Below are positions 3,770 to 28,109 of a stretch of DNA of 64,000 nucleotides, piece after piece. Positions within the stretch are counted from its first letter, which is position 1; each line of letters begins with the position of its first letter. Below the pieces are notes generated by a model. That model saw nothing but the letters and a program-made list of their open reading frames with translations. It was not told the origin of the DNA and did not search any database. This DNA is from Bryobacterales bacterium (GTDB lineage: Bacteria > Acidobacteriota > Terriglobia > Bryobacterales > Bryobacteraceae): contig PLOR01000029.1 in assembly GCA_003142185.1 (NCBI GenBank), forward strand, positions 153,600 through 217,599, in the 5' to 3' direction. Position numbers and translations under genes: made by a program.

Positions 3770-4039
3770 ATTGAATCCCTTGTGTAGCGACTTGGGAGCG
3801 CAGCCTCGGCAAGGTGGCCGCGCGGAAGGCCGTCTCTCTAGTGTATTACGGAACACGGTAGGGCACGCCCGGCCTTGTAAACTCTTGGGGCCAGGCGGCA
3901 AGCGTTGCCGGTGTCGCACCGCGAATCCCATTGATCTCCAGCACCGGGTCGTGATAGGCTAAAGCCGACGTGGAATGATTTAGGGCGCTGCTTGGCCCGG
4001 CTAATTGCAACCACGGAAAAAAATGCTAAAGGCGATTCG

Positions 4040-19811: not shown

Positions 19812-20161
19812 TACGCTCCAGTTGCCAGTTGCGCCTCGGCTTGCTCCGGGGTGTCGTAACACATCAGAAAGCCGTCCACCCCCGCCACCTGGAACAGCGT
19901 CCGGATGCGGCCGGAAACGCCCGTCAGCGCGTACCGGTGGCCTTCCCGCTGGCAGGAAACATGATAGCCCAGCAGCGCACCGAGCGCCGCCGAATCCATG
20001 TACGGCACGCTGCTCAGATCGATGATAGTGACGGCGGCCGCTCCTTCGCGTACAATGTTCTGGAAATCGAACATCGTGGCGAGGGTGAAGGGGCCCGTCA
20101 GCCGGAGTATCCGCACGTCGGGCCTGGAGCCGGCAACGATTTCGATCTGCAGTTCTTCCAT
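19811..20161 (-). CDS. STAS-domain anti-sigma factor antagonist
   Basis: 116 residues from ATG 20161: a single STAS domain with VRILRLTGPFTLATMFDFQN, VTIIDLSSVPYMDSAALGAL and the phosphorylatable Ser in MDSAALG. STAS antagonists bind or release anti-sigma kinases depending on phosphorylation of this Ser. No HPK/RsbW-type kinase is nearby, so the partner must be encoded elsewhere. It may equally be part of a regulatory switch unrelated to sigma factors. Confidence 0.88.
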   Translation of the reverse strand: MEELQIEIVAGSRPDVRILRLTGPFTLATMFDFQNIVREGAAAVTIIDLSSVPYMDSAALGALLGYHVSCQREGHRYALTGVSGRIRTLFQVAGVDGFLMCYDTPEQAEAQLATGA

Positions 20162-20216
20162 GGTGGGCAGTGTACTATGGCGGCGGGCACGCTTCAATCA
20201 AAATAGTGTTACAACC

Positions 20217-20780
20217 ATGAGACATTCGACTCCGGCTACGGCGCGGGTGATGACGCCGCCGGGCGAGCGCTGGCTGGCGCGCCGCGTGGAATCGCTGCTC
20301 GGCCGATTGCCGCCCGCGGCGGGCGCTCCGGTTTGGATTGTGCGCGTACCGGAATTGCGCGACCGGCGCGGCGCGGTGCACGCCGGGTCGTTTCTGCGGC
20401 AGCGGCGCATGGTGATCGCCTGCACGCGCGCCGAGTTTCCGCGTGTGTTCGTGCATGAGTGGTTTCACTTCGTCTGGCGGCGGGCGGGCAATCCGCTGCG
20501 CCGCGATTTCGAAGCGCTGCTGGCCGCCGAGCGCCGCGCCGGCGCGCGCGGCGAATTGGGCTGGTCGGCCGAATGGCGCAAGCGGGCGCTTACGGCGCAA
20601 GAGGTGCGCGGCCGCTCGAGGCGCTGGCGCGAATACTGTTGCGAGAGTTTCTGCGATACCGCCGCGTGGCTGTATGCCGGCGCGGCGAGCCACGCCGAGT
20701 TCACCCTCGCGCTCCGTTTCCGCCGCCGCCGCCAGGCCTGGTTCGCGCAAAACATTGCCGGCAAACGATTGTCGATATAA
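20217..20780 (+). CDS. HExxH-motif protein, putative metallopeptidase
   Basis: 187 residues from ATG 20217. The motif VFVHEWFHFVWRR fits an HExxH zinc site, and EYCCESFCDTAAWLY 60 residues on supplies a candidate Glu or Asp third ligand, as in gluzincin-like proteins. The rest is Arg-rich and has no signal peptide, so it is probably cytoplasmic. I do not recognise a named family. It is divergent from the STAS gene (55 bp between starts) and 56 bp upstream of the tlpA-like gene. Confidence 0.6.
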   Translation: MRHSTPATARVMTPPGERWLARRVESLLGRLPPAAGAPVWIVRVPELRDRRGAVHAGSFLRQRRMVIACTRAEFPRVFVHEWFHFVWRRAGNPLRRDFEALLAAERRAGARGELGWSAEWRKRALTAQEVRGRSRRWREYCCESFCDTAAWLYAGAASHAEFTLALRFRRRRQAWFAQNIAGKRLSI

Positions 20781-20791
20781 TTGAAAGTGAG

Positions 20792-20817
20792 GTGGGGCAG
20801 GTCCCCGACCTGCCAAC
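20792..20817. repeat. Family C hairpin, copy 1
   Basis: GTGGGGCAGGTCCCCGACCT and six further bases: a 7-bp stem GGCAGGT/ACCTGCC with loop CCCCG, 11 bp after a stop codon. There is no T-tract. Related hairpins follow the stops of genes ending at 33196 and 44915. Confidence 0.65.
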
Positions 20818-20836
20818 TCAACTTAGGAACCCACGC

Positions 20837-21427
20837 GTGTCTGCCTTCCGTTTTTCCGCCATCTTGAGCACGGCCCTGGCGCTGGGACTGTTTAGCGCCG
20901 GTTGCGGCGGCACCGTCGAGGTGAAGGCCGCCTCGCTCAAGGCCGAGAAGGAGCGCAAGACCGCCCCCGATTTCACGCTCAAGGACGCTGACGGCAAGGT
21001 GGTCCATCTTTCCGACTACCGCGGCAAAGTGGTGATTCTCGATTTCTGGGCCACCTGGTGCGGCCCCTGCCGCATCGAGATTCCCTGGTTTATGGATCTT
21101 CAGCGAAGGAACAGAGACCGCGGATTTGAAGTGCTGGGCGTGGCGATGGACGACGAGGGTTGGGAAGTGGTGAAGCCGTTCCTGGCCGAACTGGGCGTCA
21201 ATTACCGCGTGATGGTCGGCGACGACCTCACCGCCCAGATGTACGGCGGCGTGGACGCGCTGCCCACCACGTTCCTGATCGATAAAACCGGCAAGATCGC
21301 CGCGGTTCACGTCGGCCTCGCCAGCAGGAAGGATTTTGAAAATGGTGTCGAACAGCTTTTGCAGGCGCCCGCTCCGGTGGCTTCCGCTGGCGCTGGTGAG
21401 CCTGTGGTCTCTCTCGGCGCAAAGTAG
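20837..21427 (+). CDS. TlpA/ResA-like thiol-disulfide oxidoreductase lipoprotein
   Basis: A 196-residue thioredoxin-fold protein from GTG 20837. It has a lipoprotein signal ending LFSAGC, so it should be membrane-anchored outside the cytoplasm. The active site is FWATWCGPCRIEIPW and the cis-Pro region is ALPTTFLIDKTGKI. Proteins of this class reduce disulfides during cytochrome c maturation or supply reductant to periplasmic enzymes. The last 86 bp overlap the start of the next gene in another frame. Together with that DsbD-alpha-like gene it makes a small extracytoplasmic redox module. Confidence 0.9.
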   Translation: MSAFRFSAILSTALALGLFSAGCGGTVEVKAASLKAEKERKTAPDFTLKDADGKVVHLSDYRGKVVILDFWATWCGPCRIEIPWFMDLQRRNRDRGFEVLGVAMDDEGWEVVKPFLAELGVNYRVMVGDDLTAQMYGGVDALPTTFLIDKTGKIAAVHVGLASRKDFENGVEQLLQAPAPVASAGAGEPVVSLGAK

Positions 21428-21830
21428 CGGCCATCTGAAAGTGGGCGAACCAGCCAAAGTGGCGGCCGCTCGCGGCGCCGCCGTCGAGGCCAGGATTCCC
21501 GTCACGGTGGACGCGGGCTTTCACGTCAACAGCAACCACCCGAGCGAAGACTATCTCATCCCTTTGAAGCTGACCTGGACTTCGCTGGGCGCGCTAGAAG
21601 GGGGCGAGGTCGCCTACCCGCCGGCTAAGGCGGAGAAATACGAATTCGCCGATAAGCCGCTTTCGGTACTCTCCGGCGCGTTTTCTTTGACGGTGAGCTT
21701 CAAAGTCGCTGCCAACGCGCCGTCAGGTCCCGGTGTGGCGAGTGGCAAGCTGCGCTATCAGGCGTGCAATTCGAACACCTGCTTCCCACCGAAAACGGCG
21801 GATGTGAGCGTGGCGTATCAGGTGCAATAA
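21342..21830 (+). CDS. DsbD N-terminal (alpha) domain protein, secreted
   Basis: 162 residues from ATG 21342 (a second ATG is at 21336). The signal segment RWLPLALVSLWSLSAQSS is followed by an immunoglobulin-like DsbD-alpha domain: FHVNSNHPSEDYLIPLKLTW, VAYPPAKAEKYEFADKPLSV and the redox loop LRYQACNSNTCFPPKT. The two Cys are four residues apart; DsbD of E. coli has five between them. A full DsbD also has a membrane and a gamma domain, absent here, so the adjacent TlpA-like protein is the probable electron partner. Confidence 0.82.
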   Translation: MVSNSFCRRPLRWLPLALVSLWSLSAQSSGHLKVGEPAKVAAARGAAVEARIPVTVDAGFHVNSNHPSEDYLIPLKLTWTSLGALEGGEVAYPPAKAEKYEFADKPLSVLSGAFSLTVSFKVAANAPSGPGVASGKLRYQACNSNTCFPPKTADVSVAYQVQ

Positions 21831-21834
21831 AGAC

Positions 21835-21944
21835 GTGGCGCACGCACTCGTGCGTGCAGCGTCGAGACTCTTCTCGACGCGTCTTACTCCGGGCCGGCGG
21901 GCGTCGGCAGGAGCGCCGACGCTGCACGCACGAGCGTGCGCCAC
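21835..21944. repeat. Long inverted repeat between convergent genes
   Basis: Left arm GTGGCGCACGCACTCGTGCG (21835 on, 30 bp) pairs with CGACGCTGCACGCACGAGCG (from 21917, 28 bp), perfect except for a 2-bp indel. An inner hairpin GCGTCGGC/GCCGACGC lies at 21901-21922. It fills the gap between the DsbD-alpha gene stop and the aminotransferase stop and could end transcripts from both sides, though it lacks a T-tract. Confidence 0.75.
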
Positions 21945-21950
21945 ATCCGT

Positions 21951-23141
21951 TTACGAATTCTTCACCATGAACTGGTGCAGCCTGTCCATGCCGCGCTCCA
22001 ACTGCTCCATCGAAGCGGCGTAGGAAATGCGAACGTGGCGGTCGGTGCCGAAAGCTTCGCCTGGCACCACGGCCACATGCGCCTCCTGTAGCAGGCGTTC
22101 GGAGAAAGCCAGCGTATCCGCCATGCCGTTCTTGCCCAGCGCAACGCCGATGTTCGGGTACACGTAGAATGCCCCGCGCGGCTCGGCGCATGTCACGCCG
22201 GGGATGGCGCGCAACCGCGCCACCACGAAATCGCGCCGCTTGCGGTACTCGGCCAGCATTACGCCTACCGATTCCTGTGGTCCGAGCAAGGCTTCCACCG
22301 CCGCTTTCTGCGCAATCGAAGTCGGGTTCGACGTGGAATGGCTCTGCAGTTTCCCCATCGCGTTGATGAGCGGCGCCGGCATCAGGCCGAAGCCGATGCG
22401 CCAGCCCGTCATCGCATAGGTCTTCGAAACCGAGCCCGCCACCAGCACCGTCTCTTTGGCGCCCGGAAGCGAGGCGATCGAGAACGGCTCGCTATCGTAG
22501 AGGAATTTGCAGTAGCATTCGTCGGTCATCAGGTAGATGCCGCGCTGCGCCGCCAGGGCGAAGATCTTCTCGAACTCCGCGCGATCGAGCAGCGCGCCGC
22601 TCGGGTTCGACGGCGAATTGATGATGATCAGCTTGGTCCGCGCCGTGAGGTGCGGCTCCAACATCGCGGCGGTGAACGTGAACCCTTGCGCCTCGTCCGT
22701 GTCGACGAAAACGCATTTGCCGCCGGCGTAATTCACCACGTCCTTATAAGTCACCCAGTAAGGCACCGGAATAATGACTTCGTCGCCGGGGTTGATCAGC
22801 GCCTGCATGAGATTAAATATGATGTGCTTGCCGCCCACCGTGATCAGGCACTCGCTGGGCTGGTAATTGGTGCCGAAGTCCTTCTTGTGGGACTCGCACA
22901 CGGCCTTCTTCAGCTCGGCGGTGCCCCCGACGGGCGTGTACTTGGTGAAGTTTTGGTCGATCGCGCGCTTCGCCGCCTGCTTGATGTTGTCGGGCGTCGG
23001 GAAATCGGGCTCGCCGGCGCCAAAATCGACGACGTCAATGCCCTGCGCGCGTAGTTTGGTGGCCTCGGCGGCCACTCTCATGGTGGAGGATTCGCTGATC
23101 GAAGCGATGCGCTCCGCGATTGCGTTGGCTACGGCCTGCAT
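21951..23141 (-). CDS. Aspartate aminotransferase, class I
   Basis: A PLP enzyme that interconverts aspartate and oxaloacetate (or prephenate and arogenate in subgroup 1b). The 396 residues include VDFGAGEPDFPTPDNIKQAA, ITVGGKHIIFNLMQALINPG, IINSPSNPSGALLDR and the PLP-lysine motif GSVSKTYAMTGWRIGF. The C-terminal Arg region is HVRISYAASMEQLERG. It matches the AspC/AAT-Ib class. It lies 30 bp downstream of coaD on the same strand. Confidence 0.93.
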   Translation of the reverse strand: MQAVANAIAERIASISESSTMRVAAEATKLRAQGIDVVDFGAGEPDFPTPDNIKQAAKRAIDQNFTKYTPVGGTAELKKAVCESHKKDFGTNYQPSECLITVGGKHIIFNLMQALINPGDEVIIPVPYWVTYKDVVNYAGGKCVFVDTDEAQGFTFTAAMLEPHLTARTKLIIINSPSNPSGALLDRAEFEKIFALAAQRGIYLMTDECYCKFLYDSEPFSIASLPGAKETVLVAGSVSKTYAMTGWRIGFGLMPAPLINAMGKLQSHSTSNPTSIAQKAAVEALLGPQESVGVMLAEYRKRRDFVVARLRAIPGVTCAEPRGAFYVYPNIGVALGKNGMADTLAFSERLLQEAHVAVVPGEAFGTDRHVRISYAASMEQLERGMDRLHQFMVKNS

Positions 23142-23171
23142 GGGCCCTCCTCTTCTTCTCTTTAGACTCTC

Positions 23172-23675
23172 TCAAACGACCTTGGCCAGCCGGCGCTGCA
23201 GCCGGGCCTCGACGGTGGGCGGCACCAGGCCGGAGATGTCTCCGCCCAGGCTAAATACTTCCTTTACGAGACGGGAGCTGATGAACGAGTACGTTTCGTT
23301 GGCCATCATGAAGACGGTCTCGATCGCTGGACGCAACCGCCGGTTCATCAGCGCCATTTGCAACTCATACTCGTAATCCGAAATCGCCCGTATGCCGCGC
23401 AGCAGGACGGTAGCCGAGTGCGCGGACGCGTGGTCCACCAGGAGGCCGTGGAACGAATCCACCTCCACGTTGGGATAAACATGGACCACTTCGCGAAGCA
23501 TTTCGATACGCTCGTCGACCGAGAAAAGCGGCTCCTTGGCGTCGTTCCAGAGAATCGAAACGATCAGCCGGTCGAACATTCGCGAACCGCGCTGGATGAG
23601 ATCGAGATGGCCGTTGGTAATCGGGTCGAACGATCCAGGATATATGGCAGTCACGCGCGTCGGCTTGAGCGGCAA
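23172..23675 (-). CDS. coaD: Phosphopantetheine adenylyltransferase
   Basis: Transfers AMP from ATP to 4'-phosphopantetheine, the fourth step of coenzyme A synthesis. 167 residues with the nucleotidyltransferase motif YPGSFDPITNGHLDLIQRG, LLVDHASAHSATVLLRGIRA, YELQMALMNRRLRP and the second ATP motif YSFISSRLVKEV. Full length and canonical. It heads a probable operon with the aspartate aminotransferase. Confidence 0.97.
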   Translation of the reverse strand: MPLKPTRVTAIYPGSFDPITNGHLDLIQRGSRMFDRLIVSILWNDAKEPLFSVDERIEMLREVVHVYPNVEVDSFHGLLVDHASAHSATVLLRGIRAISDYEYELQMALMNRRLRPAIETVFMMANETYSFISSRLVKEVFSLGGDISGLVPPTVEARLQRRLAKVV

Positions 23676-23741
23676 CGGTTCGATTCGCTTTCTCGGGGTC
23701 TTATTATTCTACCGGAAAACTTGGCTGGAATTCTCGACGCA

Positions 23742-23806
23742 GGTAGGGCATCCTTTAGGTTGCCCGTGTGTTTTGGAATGCAGGGCAAGCTAAAGCATGC
23801 CCTACC
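23742..23806. repeat. Palindromic repeat GGTAGGGCATCC...GCATGCCCTACC
   Basis: A 24-bp left arm (23742-23765) pairs with the right arm (23783-23806) at 22 of 24 positions around a 17-bp loop. It lies 66 bp upstream of the coaD start, so it may sit in or behind the coaD promoter. Confidence 0.7.
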
Positions 23807-23829
23807 AAGAAAAATGGTTCCAAGTGACC

Positions 23830-24500
23830 CGATTCCCAGCACTGCCCACCGCCGTCATGCACGGCACTGAACATCGCGTTTGAGAGCACCGGACGATTCG
23901 CCGTTCCACTCCCCCAAAGCTGTTTTCTCCAGCCTCGGGATCGAAGCTTCCCGGCTCGCCGCAGCCTTTTGCCTCTCTCAAACTGAACCGCCGGCTCGTA
24001 ACGGCCTTTCGCTCGCCCGCAACGGTTGCCTCTTTCAAGGCCTCCATTCCGGGGTCAAAGTTCCCGGCCTGCTACTTCGCCTGCTTGCCAGCCGCTTCCG
24101 CAACCCGTTCGGCTCTTCGGCTCCGCTACCGCCCGCGAGTTCTTACTCGCCACGGCCGCTTCCTTGCCTCGTGCCCGTTGCTGCTTCCACGACCGGCTCC
24201 CCGAATGGCTCGCCCAGCTTCCACTCCCCTTCGGGACTTTTGCCTCCCTAAGGATCAAAGCGTTCGACTGGCCCGGTCACCCGGCGGCCCGCCTTCCGAT
24301 TCCGCCCGATCTCCGTTCGCTCCCCGCAGCCTCAAAACTAGTAAACTAGACTTTCTGGCTACGGATCACCGTTCCCGGTCCGCTACGTTTCCGGAGGCTT
24401 GCTGTTCCTCAAACCTCTTGGAACCAGATCCACTATGCGCCCGCCGGAGATTCCGGTCAATCTTTATTTGCCCTCTAACCCCTTGTTTCCTCAAGTTTTA
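23830..24500 (-). ncRNA. Candidate structured RNA or decayed element, strongly purine-biased on the minus strand
   Basis: About 670 bp without a convincing gene. The plus strand is markedly pyrimidine-rich and the minus strand correspondingly G/A-rich, unlike coding DNA around it. The minus strand holds many short hairpins closed by purine loops, such as GCGAGTAAGAACTCGC, CGGGAAGCTTCGATCCCG and CCGGAAACGTAGCGG. Several frames stay open at once, but their products are low-complexity (Ser/Pro/Arg-rich) with no ribosome-binding sites. This pattern fits a large non-coding RNA such as a HEARO/omega-RNA type element or a group II intron remnant. No IscB, reverse transcriptase or HNH gene adjoins it. 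The family is not established. Confidence 0.35.
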
Positions 24501-24597
24501 TTCGCTTTGTTTTTATATGGTTACAGGGCCATGGTCGTGCAAGGTCTGTGAATAAACCATCCGCCGGGCAGAATGCTTTTGCGATACTGAAGCCACC

Positions 24598-25383
24598 ATG
24601 CGCAGGCTCGTGATCCGGCCGGGGGCGATCGGCGATTTCATCGTTTCGCTGCCGGCCCTGGAATGCCTGCGGTCCGATTACCTGGAGGTCTGGACCGCAT
24701 CGCCCAACGCGCCCCTGATTCGGTTCGCTGGCGCGGTGCGCTCGATCGCCTCTACCGGCCTCGACCTACTGGGCATAGCGCAACCGCTGCCGCGCCTTAT
24801 CGATGAGCTGCGCCGCTTCGATTCGATCGTCTCCTGGTATGGCGCCAACCGGCCGGAGTTTCGCGAGTTGGTGCATTCGCTCGATCTGCCATTCACGTTC
24901 CTCCCCGCGTTGCCGCCGCAGGGCGCGGGAATGCATGCCACGGACTTCTACCTGGAGCAGGTGAGCGCACTGGCGGAGTACCGCGCCGACCCGATTCCGC
25001 GCATTCCGTGTAGCGTCATGCGAGAGAACTTCGCCGTCATTCATCCTTTCTCCGGAAGCCCGCGCAAGAACTGGCCCCTCGAAAACTTTCGCCGGCTGGC
25101 GCGCGGGCTGGAGCGAAGGATGCCGGTCCGCTGGTGCGCCGGGCCGGAGGACCCGCCGCTCCTGGACGCGCATCGCTTCGACGACCTGTACGAGCTGGCC
25201 TGCTGGCTGGCGCAAGCCTCTCTCTACATCGGCAACGATTCCGGCATCACCCACCTGGCGGCGGCTGTGGGAACACCCGTGCTGGCGATTTTCGGCCCCA
25301 CCGACCCTGCCGTTTGGGCGCCGCGCGGCCCGCATGTGCGAATCGCGCCATGGAGAATCGGGCCAACCCTGGAGGCAGCATGA
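24598..25383 (+). CDS. Glycosyltransferase family 9 (heptosyltransferase-like)
   Basis: 261 residues. GT9 enzymes transfer heptose from ADP-heptose to lipopolysaccharide core or related glycans. The N-terminal VIRPGAIGDFIVSLPALECL is the GT9 acceptor-side motif. The C-terminal LYIGNDSGITHLAAAVGTPV and LAIFGPTDPAVWAPRGPHV form the donor site. It is shorter than typical WaaF/WaaC (about 350) because the central region is reduced, but both halves are complete. No other LPS genes are adjacent. Confidence 0.88.
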   Translation: MRRLVIRPGAIGDFIVSLPALECLRSDYLEVWTASPNAPLIRFAGAVRSIASTGLDLLGIAQPLPRLIDELRRFDSIVSWYGANRPEFRELVHSLDLPFTFLPALPPQGAGMHATDFYLEQVSALAEYRADPIPRIPCSVMRENFAVIHPFSGSPRKNWPLENFRRLARGLERRMPVRWCAGPEDPPLLDAHRFDDLYELACWLAQASLYIGNDSGITHLAAAVGTPVLAIFGPTDPAVWAPRGPHVRIAPWRIGPTLEAA

Positions 25384-25471
25384 GCAGCCGCTGCTGATGC
25401 CCAGCTTCGATGCCGCGGACCAACAACTCGGTTACGCCGCTCGGTACGGAGTACAATAGCAGACGCCCCCC

Positions 25472-26440
25472 ATGGCAGCCCGCCTGAACCCGGTGGCCCG
25501 GGATGAGATCGTCGATCTACGGCTCGTTGCCGCCGCGGATTTGGACCCCGTGCTCGAGGAGGAAGTCGCCGTTTGGCACGACGACCTCGAGTGGGACTTC
25601 GCCAAATCGGCCCAGTTGGCGCGCCGCTTCGTTGGCGTGCACGCCTTGAGCGGACGCGTGCTGGTGGTCGACGGCCGGGTCGCGGGCTACGTCTATTTTG
25701 TGTTCGAGGATCACAAGGCCCTCCTCGGCGATCTGTACATCCTGCACGCCCTGCGCACCCAGGAACGGGAGGATCTCCTGCTGAGACCGGCGCTCGATGA
25801 GATCTTCTCGACCCCGCACGTCACTCGCATCGAGGCCCAACTGCTGATGCTCAACTACGCGCCCGCGCGCGTGTTGCCCCGCGCGGCCGAGACCCATCAG
25901 TTCTGCCGCAACTTCATGCGAGCGGATCTGAAGAAGGCGGATCTGGGGGAAGGCACCGTGCGCCGGCCCTTCTATCTGGAGAACTGGTCGGACCGTTACA
26001 GCGACGCCGCTGCCGCGCTGATTGCCGAATCGTATGCCGGACACGTGGACGGCTGGATCAACGACCAGTATCGCAGCCCCGCCGGCGCGCACCGTTTCCT
26101 GCACAATATCGTGGCGTATCCGGGCTGCGGCACGTTTTCGCAACCCGCTTCTTACCTTGCTTTCGAAGGCGCCAGTGGCAGCTTGTGCGGCCTTTCCCTG
26201 ACCAGCCTGGTCTCGGCCGAATCCGGCCACATCACCCAAATCTGCGTGTCGCCTTCCGTGCGCGGCACCGGCATCGGTCATGCCCTGCTGCGCCAGTCGC
26301 TGCTGGCCTTGCGCAATATGGAATGCCGCTCCGTGGGCCTCACCGTCACCGCGGCCAATGAGAACGCGGTGGCTCTTTACGAGCGCGTCGGCTTCCGCAC
26401 GATTCGCCAGTTCTCCGCCTACGCCTGGGACTTGGCGTAG
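25472..26440 (+). CDS. GNAT family acetyltransferase, double domain
   Basis: 322 residues in two GNAT-like halves. The N-terminal half (about 15-150) has LVVDGRVAGYVYFVFEDHKA but a degenerate acetyl-CoA site. The C-terminal half (about 170-320) has a full motif A, ITQICVSPSVRGTGIGHALL, followed by LTVTAANENAVALYERVGF. One active and one degenerate domain is common in this superfamily. The substrate is unknown; a small-molecule or protein N-acetyltransferase is likely. It is preceded by a gap of 88 bp after the GT9 gene. Confidence 0.85.
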   Translation: MAARLNPVARDEIVDLRLVAAADLDPVLEEEVAVWHDDLEWDFAKSAQLARRFVGVHALSGRVLVVDGRVAGYVYFVFEDHKALLGDLYILHALRTQEREDLLLRPALDEIFSTPHVTRIEAQLLMLNYAPARVLPRAAETHQFCRNFMRADLKKADLGEGTVRRPFYLENWSDRYSDAAAALIAESYAGHVDGWINDQYRSPAGAHRFLHNIVAYPGCGTFSQPASYLAFEGASGSLCGLSLTSLVSAESGHITQICVSPSVRGTGIGHALLRQSLLALRNMECRSVGLTVTAANENAVALYERVGFRTIRQFSAYAWDLA

Positions 26441-26538
26441 GCTCCAGCCCACCCCTAGACCGGCGTTTCGCATCGGATTACCCTAATATATGGAAGCCGG
26501 TGCGGCGCAGTAGCCGCCCGGCGCCAAGGGGGTGGTCC

Positions 26539-27405
26539 ATGGTGCCGGTTGCCAAGATCCTGTTGCCGGTGGACTTTTCGGAACGCTCCGTCGGAGCCGT
26601 CCACTGCGCCCAGCGCCTCGCGCAGCGCTTTTCCCCGGAAATCATCCTGCTGCACGTATTGGCGCCCATGCAGTACCGGCTCGGCGACACCGAGATGGGC
26701 GGCGTCATGCTGGGTGACTTATACCGCGCCCAGCTGGAGAGTCTGACCCTCGATCTGGAGCAGTTTCAGCAGGCGGAACTGGCGGGGTGCAATGTGCGGC
26801 GCCTGGTGGTGGACGGCGACCCCGCGTTCCGCATCATCGAGTTTGCGCATGACGAAAAGGTGGACCTCATCATGATGCCCACCCACGGTTGCGGACTGTT
26901 CCGCCGGTTCATTCTCGGCTCCAACACCGCCAAGGTGCTGCATGACGTGGAGTGTCCCGTGTGGACCGGCGTGCATATCGCGGAGTCCGCCACGAGACCG
27001 GTCGAGGTTCGCCACGTGCTCTGCGCGGTGGACCTCGGCTCGCAAAGCGAGCGCGCTTTGAAATGGGCCCACTGGCTGAGCCGTACCTTGGAAGCCCAGC
27101 TCACTTTGCTGCACGTCACGGCCGCCTGCCCGGAGACCCCGGACCATGCCGACGACGCGTGGCGCGCCAAGCTGCGCTGGTCGGCGGAGGAGACGCTGGA
27201 CCGCCTGCAGGCAAAGGCGGGATCGCAGGCGGAAGTCATGCTTCAGGCCGGCGATCCGGCCCATGCCATCTGCGCCGCCGCCGCCCGCATTCACGCCGGC
27301 GTGCTGGTGATCGCGCGCGGTTCCGCCGCTGGAGGCTTCGGCCGCCTGCGCACCAACGCCTACGCCATCATCCGCCAATCGCCGTGTCCGGTAGTGAGCG
27401 TGTAG
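26539..27405 (+). CDS. Universal stress protein with two UspA domains
   Basis: 288 residues from ATG 26539, with GGGGGTGG upstream. Domain 1 (about 5-145) begins KILLPVDFSERSVGAVHCAQ and has the ATP-loop region MMPTHGCGLFRRFILGSNTA. Domain 2 (about 155-288) begins VRHVLCAVDLGSQSERALKW and ends VIARGSAAGGFGRLRTNAYA. Domain 1 looks able to bind ATP; the loop in domain 2 is altered. Such tandem proteins respond to starvation, oxygen limitation or DNA damage; no inducer is evident here. Confidence 0.92.
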   Translation: MVPVAKILLPVDFSERSVGAVHCAQRLAQRFSPEIILLHVLAPMQYRLGDTEMGGVMLGDLYRAQLESLTLDLEQFQQAELAGCNVRRLVVDGDPAFRIIEFAHDEKVDLIMMPTHGCGLFRRFILGSNTAKVLHDVECPVWTGVHIAESATRPVEVRHVLCAVDLGSQSERALKWAHWLSRTLEAQLTLLHVTAACPETPDHADDAWRAKLRWSAEETLDRLQAKAGSQAEVMLQAGDPAHAICAAAARIHAGVLVIARGSAAGGFGRLRTNAYAIIRQSPCPVVSV

Positions 27406-27548
27406 AACCCGTTGCAGGTCTTCGCTGCCACCGCTCCATAGCTTCCTTTAACAGCTTCCGGATGGCCGAGGCAGCGATATAATCGGGAAACGCCCGCCGG
27501 CAGCATCGGCCGATTGCGCGCAGAACTTTCACTTTTGGAGGATCCAAA

Positions 27549-28109
27549 ATGCCACTTGCCTGGCCCGCCCCTGAACCGGCCCCCGAAAAAGCTACCACAA
27601 AGGAAGCGGAGACTCGAACCGTCCTCCTTCAGGAATATGGAGATCACGGAAACTGGGCGCGCCATTACAGCACCATCAGGTTGACGCTCGGAACCTTTTT
27701 CATCACCGCCGCGACCGGCATGATAACTGTCCGCTGGGACAGACCTCAGACGGCTATCGCGGTGAGCGCGGGCGTCGTCTTCGGCATTGGCGTGCTTCTC
27801 TTTATGGTCTTTAGCGCCTTCACATTCGACAAGATGAACAAGCAGCTCGAGATCGTAGATTCATACAGCGCAAAACTAAAAACGGGGACTGTAGAGACAA
27901 CCAAGAAGCTCAAATTGTGGGGGTGGGGAACCGGCTTGCCCATCGCCATTCTATTCGTGGTCGCGTTCACATCGTTTGACCTCTGGTGGCTTGTCGCCTC
28001 CAAGCCGGCGCCGGGCCAGGTGACCCAGATTACAGTCCCCATGACGATCAAGGTCGGACAACAACCGGAAGTCACCGTCGACGTTCCGGTCAGAGTGACT
28101 GCACCCTAG
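27549..28109 (+). CDS. Integral membrane protein of unknown function
   Basis: 186 residues with a strong ribosome-binding site (TTGGAGGATCC). The N-terminus is acidic and soluble, followed by two hydrophobic segments (LTLGTFFITAATGMI, AIAVSAGVVFGIGVLLFMVF). A cytoplasmic-looking linker and a third segment (LPIAILFVVAFTSFDLWWLV) come next, then a C-terminal beta-rich tail (VTQITVPMTIKVGQQPEVTV). The layout resembles small SLATT-like membrane proteins but I cannot assign it. Lower GC than its neighbours hints at a different origin. Confidence 0.6.
   Translation: MPLAWPAPEPAPEKATTKEAETRTVLLQEYGDHGNWARHYSTIRLTLGTFFITAATGMITVRWDRPQTAIAVSAGVVFGIGVLLFMVFSAFTFDKMNKQLEIVDSYSAKLKTGTVETTKKLKLWGWGTGLPIAILFVVAFTSFDLWWLVASKPAPGQVTQITVPMTIKVGQQPEVTVDVPVRVTAP

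Follow-up and report, generated by a model that had tools for sequence, protein, structure and literature searches.

A putative structured RNA gene of about 610 nt with five kink-turn-like modules in the Bryobacterales

The window analyzed here is a stretch of 64,000 nucleotides from a Bryobacterales genome (assembly GCA_003142185.1, contig PLOR01000029.1, positions 153,600 to 217,599). Between coaD, which Pfam recognizes as cytidylyltransferase-like, and a gene that it assigns to GT9, the minus strand almost certainly carries a gene for a structured RNA, as judged from comparison with homologues. An earlier note on this DNA had placed a candidate large non-coding RNA at 23830-24500. The comparison bears this candidate out but moves its coordinates to 24425-23807; the region from about 24432 to 24522 contains a promoter and upstream A/T tracts, and lies outside the RNA. 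The predicted transcript ends are taken from sequence conservation. Alignment positions are given as r, where the window position equals 24425 - r. The proposed RNA and its main structural elements are as follows.

23807 to 24425, minus strand: putative RNA gene, about 610 nt, with GGUUCCAAGAGG at its 5' end (24425) and CUUGGAACC plus a U-run at its 3' end; placed by a second copy, homologue ends and covariation
24409 to 24425, minus strand: 5' strand of the closing helix P1, whose partner strand is 23816-23832; in 59 sequences, 95.0% of its cells are paired
24291 to 24398, minus strand: arm D1, the basis of covariance model R1; supported by that model and covariation
24200 to 24285, minus strand: arm D2, with a GGGA/UCCC hairpin; supported by covariation (r180-r189)
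24090 to 24194, minus strand: arm D3; supported by covariation and pairing counts
23990 to 24084, minus strand: arm D4; supported by covariation and pairing counts
23880 to 23981, minus strand: arm D5; supported by covariation and pairing counts
23843 to 23872, minus strand: D6, a short hairpin in which no kink-turn was seen; supported by covariation and pairing counts
23816 to 23832, minus strand: 3' strand of P1, followed by one base and then the U-run; supported by homologue ends and pairing counts

The composition of this region is distinctive. The minus strand from 23807 to 24425 is 62.2% purine, and only six of 1268 segments (619 bases, 50-base steps, either strand) come within 0.01 of this value or exceed it. 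These six start at 23751-24001 and all overlap the RNA element, which bears out the strong minus-strand purine bias reported in the earlier note. Within 20000-28000, a GC skew of about -0.29 occurs at the RNA locus alone. The hairpins described for this strand are likewise reflected in its predicted fold of -283.6 kcal/mol, compared with a mean of -244.2 kcal/mol for 20 shuffled sequences (z -5.3). Immediately 3' of the RNA is a separate, strong inverted repeat (23737-23811, GGTAGGGCAT..ATGCCCTACC) that overlaps only the U-run, and a similar sequence, AAAGCATGC, follows the RNA in one homologue (L020). The word GGGCATGCTTTAG is not above chance in the window, with three matches at up to two mismatches, a number reached by 19 of 100 shuffles. 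Elsewhere in the window, a SAM-II riboswitch (long-loop type, RF01726) lies at 3964-4039 on the plus strand; its 44 bits just equal the gathering score of 44.

The genome contains two strong matches in all, namely the RNA of the window and a second copy. The copies agree at 609 of the 620 positions aligned (98%), from 23806 to 24425; the alignment stops there and the flanks differ. They are separated by two single-base gaps, one of which falls inside the open reading frames at 24026-24349 and 24085-24555. This bears on the reading of the region as a protein gene on the plus strand, to which we give almost no credence. Stop-free runs are long on that strand (a median of 158 codons, compared with 95 for the RNA strand), but such runs can follow from composition. 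A frame-disrupting gap between nearly identical copies argues against coding, as do the 117-sequence alignment, where just 542 of 7789 gap runs are divisible by three, and substitutions that follow the RNA pairs. The earlier statements that no plausible gene is present, and that the plus-strand frames look like translations antisense to an RNA, therefore agree with the comparison between copies and homologues.

Homologues were detected by DNA search in the genomes of 87 of 201 relatives, and a second query from a divergent homologue gave 86 of 201. An iterated profile recovered a near-full-length unit in 81 of 91 loci. Model R1, which represents the 5' domain (arm D1), matches 146 of the 257 genomes searched in the order, or 95 of 163 if only good-quality genomes are counted, usually with one or two matches per genome. 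Two of the matches in the order come from a second family, f2, and the other listed ones from f1. Among the 32 f1 genomes without a DNA match, R1 clearly matched one (G064) and marginally another (G009, E 0.0095); the latter was rejected together with G127 (E 0.008), as both score no more than 0.3 bits by the full-length profile. A DNA match in a genome of another family (G181, E 3.7e-4) was also discarded, as R1 does not match it. Across a sample of the phylum, R1 matched two of 396 genomes, both f1, in a search that scored few candidates per genome and could have passed over weak relatives. A strict DNA pattern identified 116 stretches among genome contigs, whose titles name Acidobacteria, Bryobacterales, Solibacter, Terriglobia and the like with one exception. 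This contig (L187, VFZE01000005.1) is labelled Acidimicrobiia and carries the RNA in locus A, one of the genomic settings described below; its label looks wrong. Searches of open-licence PMC papers turned up no description of the RNA.

Several sequence sets were used for comparison. The largest contains 117 sequences, which are the 171 full-length matches minus partial and redundant copies. A 76-sequence alignment leaves out L050 and L083, where an internal piece is missing, and L072, where the 5' end does not match; subsets A1 and A2 hold 61 and 59 of the 76. The RNA copies of L050 and L083 may be natural deletions or assembly errors. Loci that are not full length and two duplicates were omitted from the end comparison.

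Covariation in these sets supports the proposed fold. The 76 sequences have a mean identity of 59%, and a tree-based test that takes site rates into account returned 11 significant column pairs for them, ten of which are in predicted helices; an initial test without site rates, which gave 18 pairs, was set aside for this stricter one. When all column pairs of the 117 sequences were compared with a tree-based, rate-aware null, ten pairs passed, and nine of these were in the model. The tenth, r180-r189, lay outside the first model and is complementary in 99% of sequences. D2 was corrected accordingly to contain a GGGA/UCCC hairpin, and the RNAalifold pairs r171-173/r178-180 were dropped. With testing restricted to proposed pairs in the 117 sequences, 56 of 179 covary at E < 0.05. 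These tests are our own implementation of the idea behind R-scape, rather than R-scape itself.

Pairing counts on 59 sequences are consistent with these results. Once RNAalifold pairs inside the kink-turn loops had been removed, 174 curated pairs remained, for which 87.4% of cells are paired compared with 71.6% after shuffling. Covariation is 0.486 against 0.210, and 147 of 174 pairs have changed on both sides against 109.4. None of 500 shuffles reaches the observed pairing, two-sided changes or covariation, with the proviso that related sequences can beat shuffles. Pairing falls to 35-46% when partners are slid by 1 to 3 columns, a control that favors the structure, itself derived from related alignments. 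Two-sided changes occur in 29 of 30 helices, and the distal helix of D5 is weak, with 66.4% of cells paired. As 11 of the 16 P1 pairs never vary, those pairs provide no test of its pairing. In the resulting layout, P1 closes the molecule and D1 stands alone; a short helix, r135-139/436-440, encloses D2, D3 and D4, and is followed by D5 and D6. The earlier note had proposed that the minus strand encodes a large structured non-coding RNA and had named covarying helices in homologues as the support to look for; such helices are found.

Each of D1 to D5 contains the same internal loop, in which the strand C-NNN-GA-(3b)-stem lies opposite stem-(3n)-GA-G. The candidate modules are located as follows, where the core consists of the G.A pair, the A.G pair and the C-stem pair.

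24362 to 24371, minus strand: bulged strand of kink-turn 1, partner 24320-24326; core in 116 of 117 homologues
24252 to 24262, minus strand: bulged strand of kink-turn 2, partner 24222-24229; core in 105 of 117
24158 to 24168, minus strand: bulged strand of kink-turn 3 (GGC-AAG-GA-A-GC), partner 24119-24126; core in 108 of 117
24050 to 24061, minus strand: bulged strand of kink-turn 4, partner 24011-24019; core in 107 of 117
23937 to 23947, minus strand: bulged strand of kink-turn 5, partner 23908-23915; core in 103 of 117

The loops display the features that define a kink-turn, that is a 3-nt bulge, tandem G.A/A.G pairs and paired C and NC helices. In modules 1 to 5 respectively, the G.A pair is present in 116, 114, 111, 110 and 109 of 117 sequences, the A.G pair in 116, 113, 110, 111 and 110, and the 3-nt bulge in 117, 98, 116, 114 and 116. 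All five cores occur in 76 of the 117 homologues and at least four in 112. Some instances fail the strict definition, and all of its features are found together in 115, 91, 89, 100 and 91 sequences. These counts come from the same alignment in which the modules had first been recognized. A structure-free search for the motif pair of modules 1, 2, 4 and 5 found 2.50 per RNA, compared with 0.018 in 2340 dinucleotide shuffles. On this sequence evidence, most of the five modules are very probably real kink-turns.

The modules also tend to satisfy published sequence rules for folding. According to McPhee and colleagues (PMC4382518), a kink-turn with G at 3n or C at 3b, though not both, can fold in metal ions. 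PMC8191799 adds that C:G is common at -1b:-1n and that G:C there impairs folding. We scored the former as a sequence rule only, excluding Watson-Crick 3b:3n pairs. It holds in 556 of 585 module instances, and in 507 of 585 it is combined with C:G at -1b:-1n. For modules 1 to 5, the 3b:3n rule is satisfied in 117, 114, 104, 110 and 111 of 117 sequences, whereas 117, 114, 95.1, 81.7 and 105.5 are expected if the two columns vary independently. Hence only modules 3, 4 and 5 exceed column composition, while modules 1 and 2 do no better. Kink-turn 4 switches between C:C and U:G types, and parsimony on the tree places ten double changes from C:C to U:G or G:G. C:G at this position, which would stop ion folding, occurs in none of the 117 sequences. 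Changes from allowed to disallowed combinations were counted by parsimony as 3 of 12 in module 2, 9 of 41 in module 3, 8 of 34 in module 4 and 4 of 25 in module 5. The L7Ae family (PF01248) was found in one of 201 relatives, a genome of a different family (f6), and was not found in the sample of the window's own family by a search whose control detects 7 of 14 known genomes. A kink-turn binder unrelated to this protein family may still be present. We predict from these patterns that the kink-turns would fold by ions alone.

The RNA is preceded by a conserved promoter sequence of the form TTGAC-17-CATnnT, which recurs across relatives with GGTTCCAAG at the RNA start. Promoter and end counts refer to 114 homologues, as three of the 117 are too short upstream (at least 70 nt is needed). 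The predicted signals in the window are listed below.

24465 to 24522, minus strand: A/T tracts at about -42, -63, -75, -88 and -98, roughly helically phased and UP-element-like; seen in the information content of 114 upstream regions
24455 to 24460, minus strand: -35 element TTGACC, 17 bp from the -10 element; TTGAC in 109 of 114 homologues, against a shuffled rate of 2.8%
24432 to 24437, minus strand: -10 element CATAGT; 87 of 114 homologues have a -10 with a score of 4 of 6 or better, and conservation is seen position by position
23807 to 23814, minus strand: terminator-like U-run that ends the RNA; 106 of 114 homologues have CTTGGAACC, and in 98 of those 106 the 12 nt that follow contain 7 or more T

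Spacing is constrained in the 87 homologues with a scoring -10, with 17 bp between the elements in 76 and 18 bp in 11. The first G of the RNA is the seventh base after the -10 in 85 of them. The A/T tracts resemble the upstream elements of strong stable-RNA promoters. A TTGnGGAAAA-like word also recurs at about -62 to -70 and may be an A-tract or a regulator site; GGAAA starts at -75 to -55 in 65 of 114 sequences, compared with two in a control stretch. At the other end, local folding of the last 60 nt pairs a mean of only 3.5 of the nine bases of CTTGGAACC, and 7 or 8 of the nine in ten sequences. In most homologues, it is therefore the long-range helix P1 that supplies a complete stem ahead of the U-run, and we infer that termination depends on it.

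The genomic setting of the RNA is recurrent. Classification by neighbors assigned 136 of 208 loci to type A and 24 to type B, with three mixed and 45 unclassed (same-record duplicates included). At a typical A locus, GAF and YCF48-like genes precede the RNA, and zinc-ribbon, aminotransferase and HipA-like genes lie beyond it in convergent orientation. Pfam supports the GAF, YCF48-type repeat, class IV aminotransferase and HipA-like kinase assignments in one representative each; its zinc-ribbon label is below the cut-off. In the B setting, to which the copy in the window belongs, a GT9 gene lies upstream and points away. At least ten of the 136 A rows have an A gene in another arrangement, for example a HipA-like gene upstream on the same strand, which indicates that a third setting exists. 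This recurrent HipA-like arrangement was observed at L099/L125, L134, L169, L145, L200 and L117.

These neighborhoods argue against the RNA acting in cis, as a leader or riboswitch, on the gene that lies downstream, which in the window would be coaD. The RNA does point towards coaD, whose start is about 130 nt further on. However, among the loci searched coaD adjoins the RNA only in the window's own copy, the commoner locus has convergent next genes (the aminotransferase and the weakly assigned zinc-ribbon protein), and the RNA ends in its own U-run. A leader function is accordingly extremely improbable.

Some relatives retain the flanking genes of locus A without the RNA. In L226, L228 and L232 these genes abut, and our most sensitive profile search finds no RNA. 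It follows that the RNA is not essential throughout the family. The GAF and zinc-ribbon genes adjoin in L226 and L232, with no YCF48-like gene between them. We also discarded the idea that the YCF48-like gene is functionally tied to the RNA, since L228 keeps this gene without the RNA and the gene is not found at locus B.

Copies within a genome are often alike. In nine of 14 two-copy genomes, the copies are closer to each other than to the copy of any other genome in the alignment, and five of these nine carry one copy at locus A and the other at locus B. The remaining five genomes (G053, G104, G119, G094, G090) have copies that are not closest to each other. This pattern fits gene conversion between copies in some lineages, an effect that missing close relatives could inflate. 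The mixed loci (L028/L142, apparently one contig, and L188) combine an upstream gene of B with a downstream gene of A, which is what recombination between copies at the RNA would produce.

It is also highly improbable that the element is mobile or a remnant of something mobile, be it a MITE-like repeat with GGTTCCAAG/CTTGGAACC ends, a HEARO/omega RNA or a group II intron. The inverted ends, a 98% identical second copy with different flanks, the 45 of 208 loci that could not be assigned to the two main settings and the rearranged A rows would fit such an element. Nevertheless, two settings are common to most loci across genera, and the window's genome holds just two strong matches, the identity of which can be explained by gene conversion. 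The strict DNA pattern has no match in viral contigs, a distant blastn search of the window RNA against phages and plasmids returned nothing, the promoter is conserved outside the repeat, and no Rfam family matches.

The Rfam comparison was extended to divergent homologues. Within the RNA, no Rfam 15 model matches at gathering score or at E <= 5 with permissive filters; none matches in eight divergent loci at gathering score or in ten loci at E <= 0.1. The earlier note had singled out HEARO, GOLLD and group II introns for comparison, and these assignments are not supported: neither their covariance models nor those of ROOL and OLE match the RNA. Relaxed matches (microRNA-type, Termite-leu) lie on the neighboring inverted repeat at 23737-23811 and were treated as chance. 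RNase P RNA and tmRNA were rejected, as the above-cut-off matches of the genome are on other contigs. The 6S model (RF00013) has no match in the genome and detects only 5 of 14 control genomes; we take the size and fold of the RNA to differ from those of 6S.

The RNA nonetheless resembles some known systems. OLE RNA is likewise about 600 nt, non-coding and elaborately folded, with a kink-turn (PMC9723947, PMC12286853). OLE occurs mostly in Bacillota and has a single reported kink-turn, bound by the L7Ae homologue YbxF/OapC, whereas the present RNA is found in Bryobacterales and has five kink-turn-like modules. An L7Ae/YbxF-type binder also distinguishes OLE, as no L7Ae homologue was detected in the family sample here. 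ROOL and GOLLD are large ornate bacterial RNAs of unknown role for which RNA-only complexes are known (PMC12286853). They are encoded in phages and prophages, often near tRNA islands; the present RNA has recurrent chromosomal neighbors and no match in phage records or viral contigs. Its modules resemble Kt-7-type kink-turns of the ribosome and SAM-I riboswitch, which PMC4382518 and PMC8191799 describe with a 3-nt bulge, tandem G.A/A.G pairs, usually C:G at -1b:-1n, and G at 3n or C at 3b. The difference is that there are five modules here, one per long arm. Finally, Table 1 of PMC2864571 includes a Solibacter-1 motif, a candidate RNA marked '?' from Solibacter usitatus, which is probably a relative. 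The row carries no Rfam number, and the two may overlap. The RNA represents a new family absent from Rfam 15, unless the Solibacter-1 candidate belongs to the same one. Large ornate RNAs are an already known descriptive kind, to which the RNA is likened by size, conservation and non-coding nature; the comparisons made here assign it to none of the known ones.

In summary, the comparison shows a conserved promoter sequence, conserved ends, covarying helices, a kink-turn-like module in every one of the five long arms and two recurrent chromosomal loci with different neighbors. No result singles out a particular partner or substrate. We lean towards reading the RNA as an independently transcribed, trans-acting, architectural RNA of about 610 nt that is pre-folded by kink-turns. 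That it serves as a scaffold rather than a catalyst is an evenly balanced judgment. In the mechanism we propose, the strong promoter and upstream A/T tracts would make the RNA abundant. The transcript would end once the 3' strand closes long-range P1 before the U-run, which would tie release to folding. Mg2+ would next bend each of the five kink-turns with no need for an L7Ae-type protein, after which the arms might pack against one another. The finished RNA would be a scaffold whose shape is set in advance, acting as an RNA-only particle or together with an as yet unrecognized protein.

Two other functions deserve consideration. A new large ribozyme, with an active site formed by the five-armed fold and positioned by the kink-turns, is rather unlikely. 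Its size, the several nearly invariant unpaired nucleotides outside the kink-turn cores, the closed terminal helix and the failure to find an L7Ae-family protein in the family would suit a catalyst. The lack of an Rfam match, however, means no known catalytic core, and the RNA has its own promoter sequence and end, unlike an intron. A long regulatory RNA that pairs with mRNAs or titrates a protein is a distinctly unlikely reading. It would be compatible with a dedicated promoter with upstream A/T tracts, usually one or two matches per genome and copies that are often homogenized. Against this, two-sided changes in 29 of 30 helices (147 of 174 pairs) leave little obvious free seed sequence. Typical sRNAs are also much shorter.

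To our knowledge, large structured bacterial RNAs outside the ribosome are few, and OLE, ROOL and GOLLD also have no settled function. The present RNA lacks a detectable Rfam relative yet occurs widely within a single acidobacterial order (146 of 257 genomes), and it raises the question of what role five kink-turns play in cells in which the search revealed no L7Ae-family protein. The support for its helices is sufficient for direct probing, and the double changes in kink-turn 4 provide a natural test of kink-turn folding rules. A bolder possibility, which we hold tentatively and consider doubtful, is a new class of RNA machine with five metal-folded kinked arms, a P1 helix doubling as terminator, a compact or oligomeric RNA-only particle and no detected L7Ae. 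If this were true, it would be the first RNA outside the ribosome known to us to be built on five kink-turns, and the shape of this RNA machine could respond to Mg2+.
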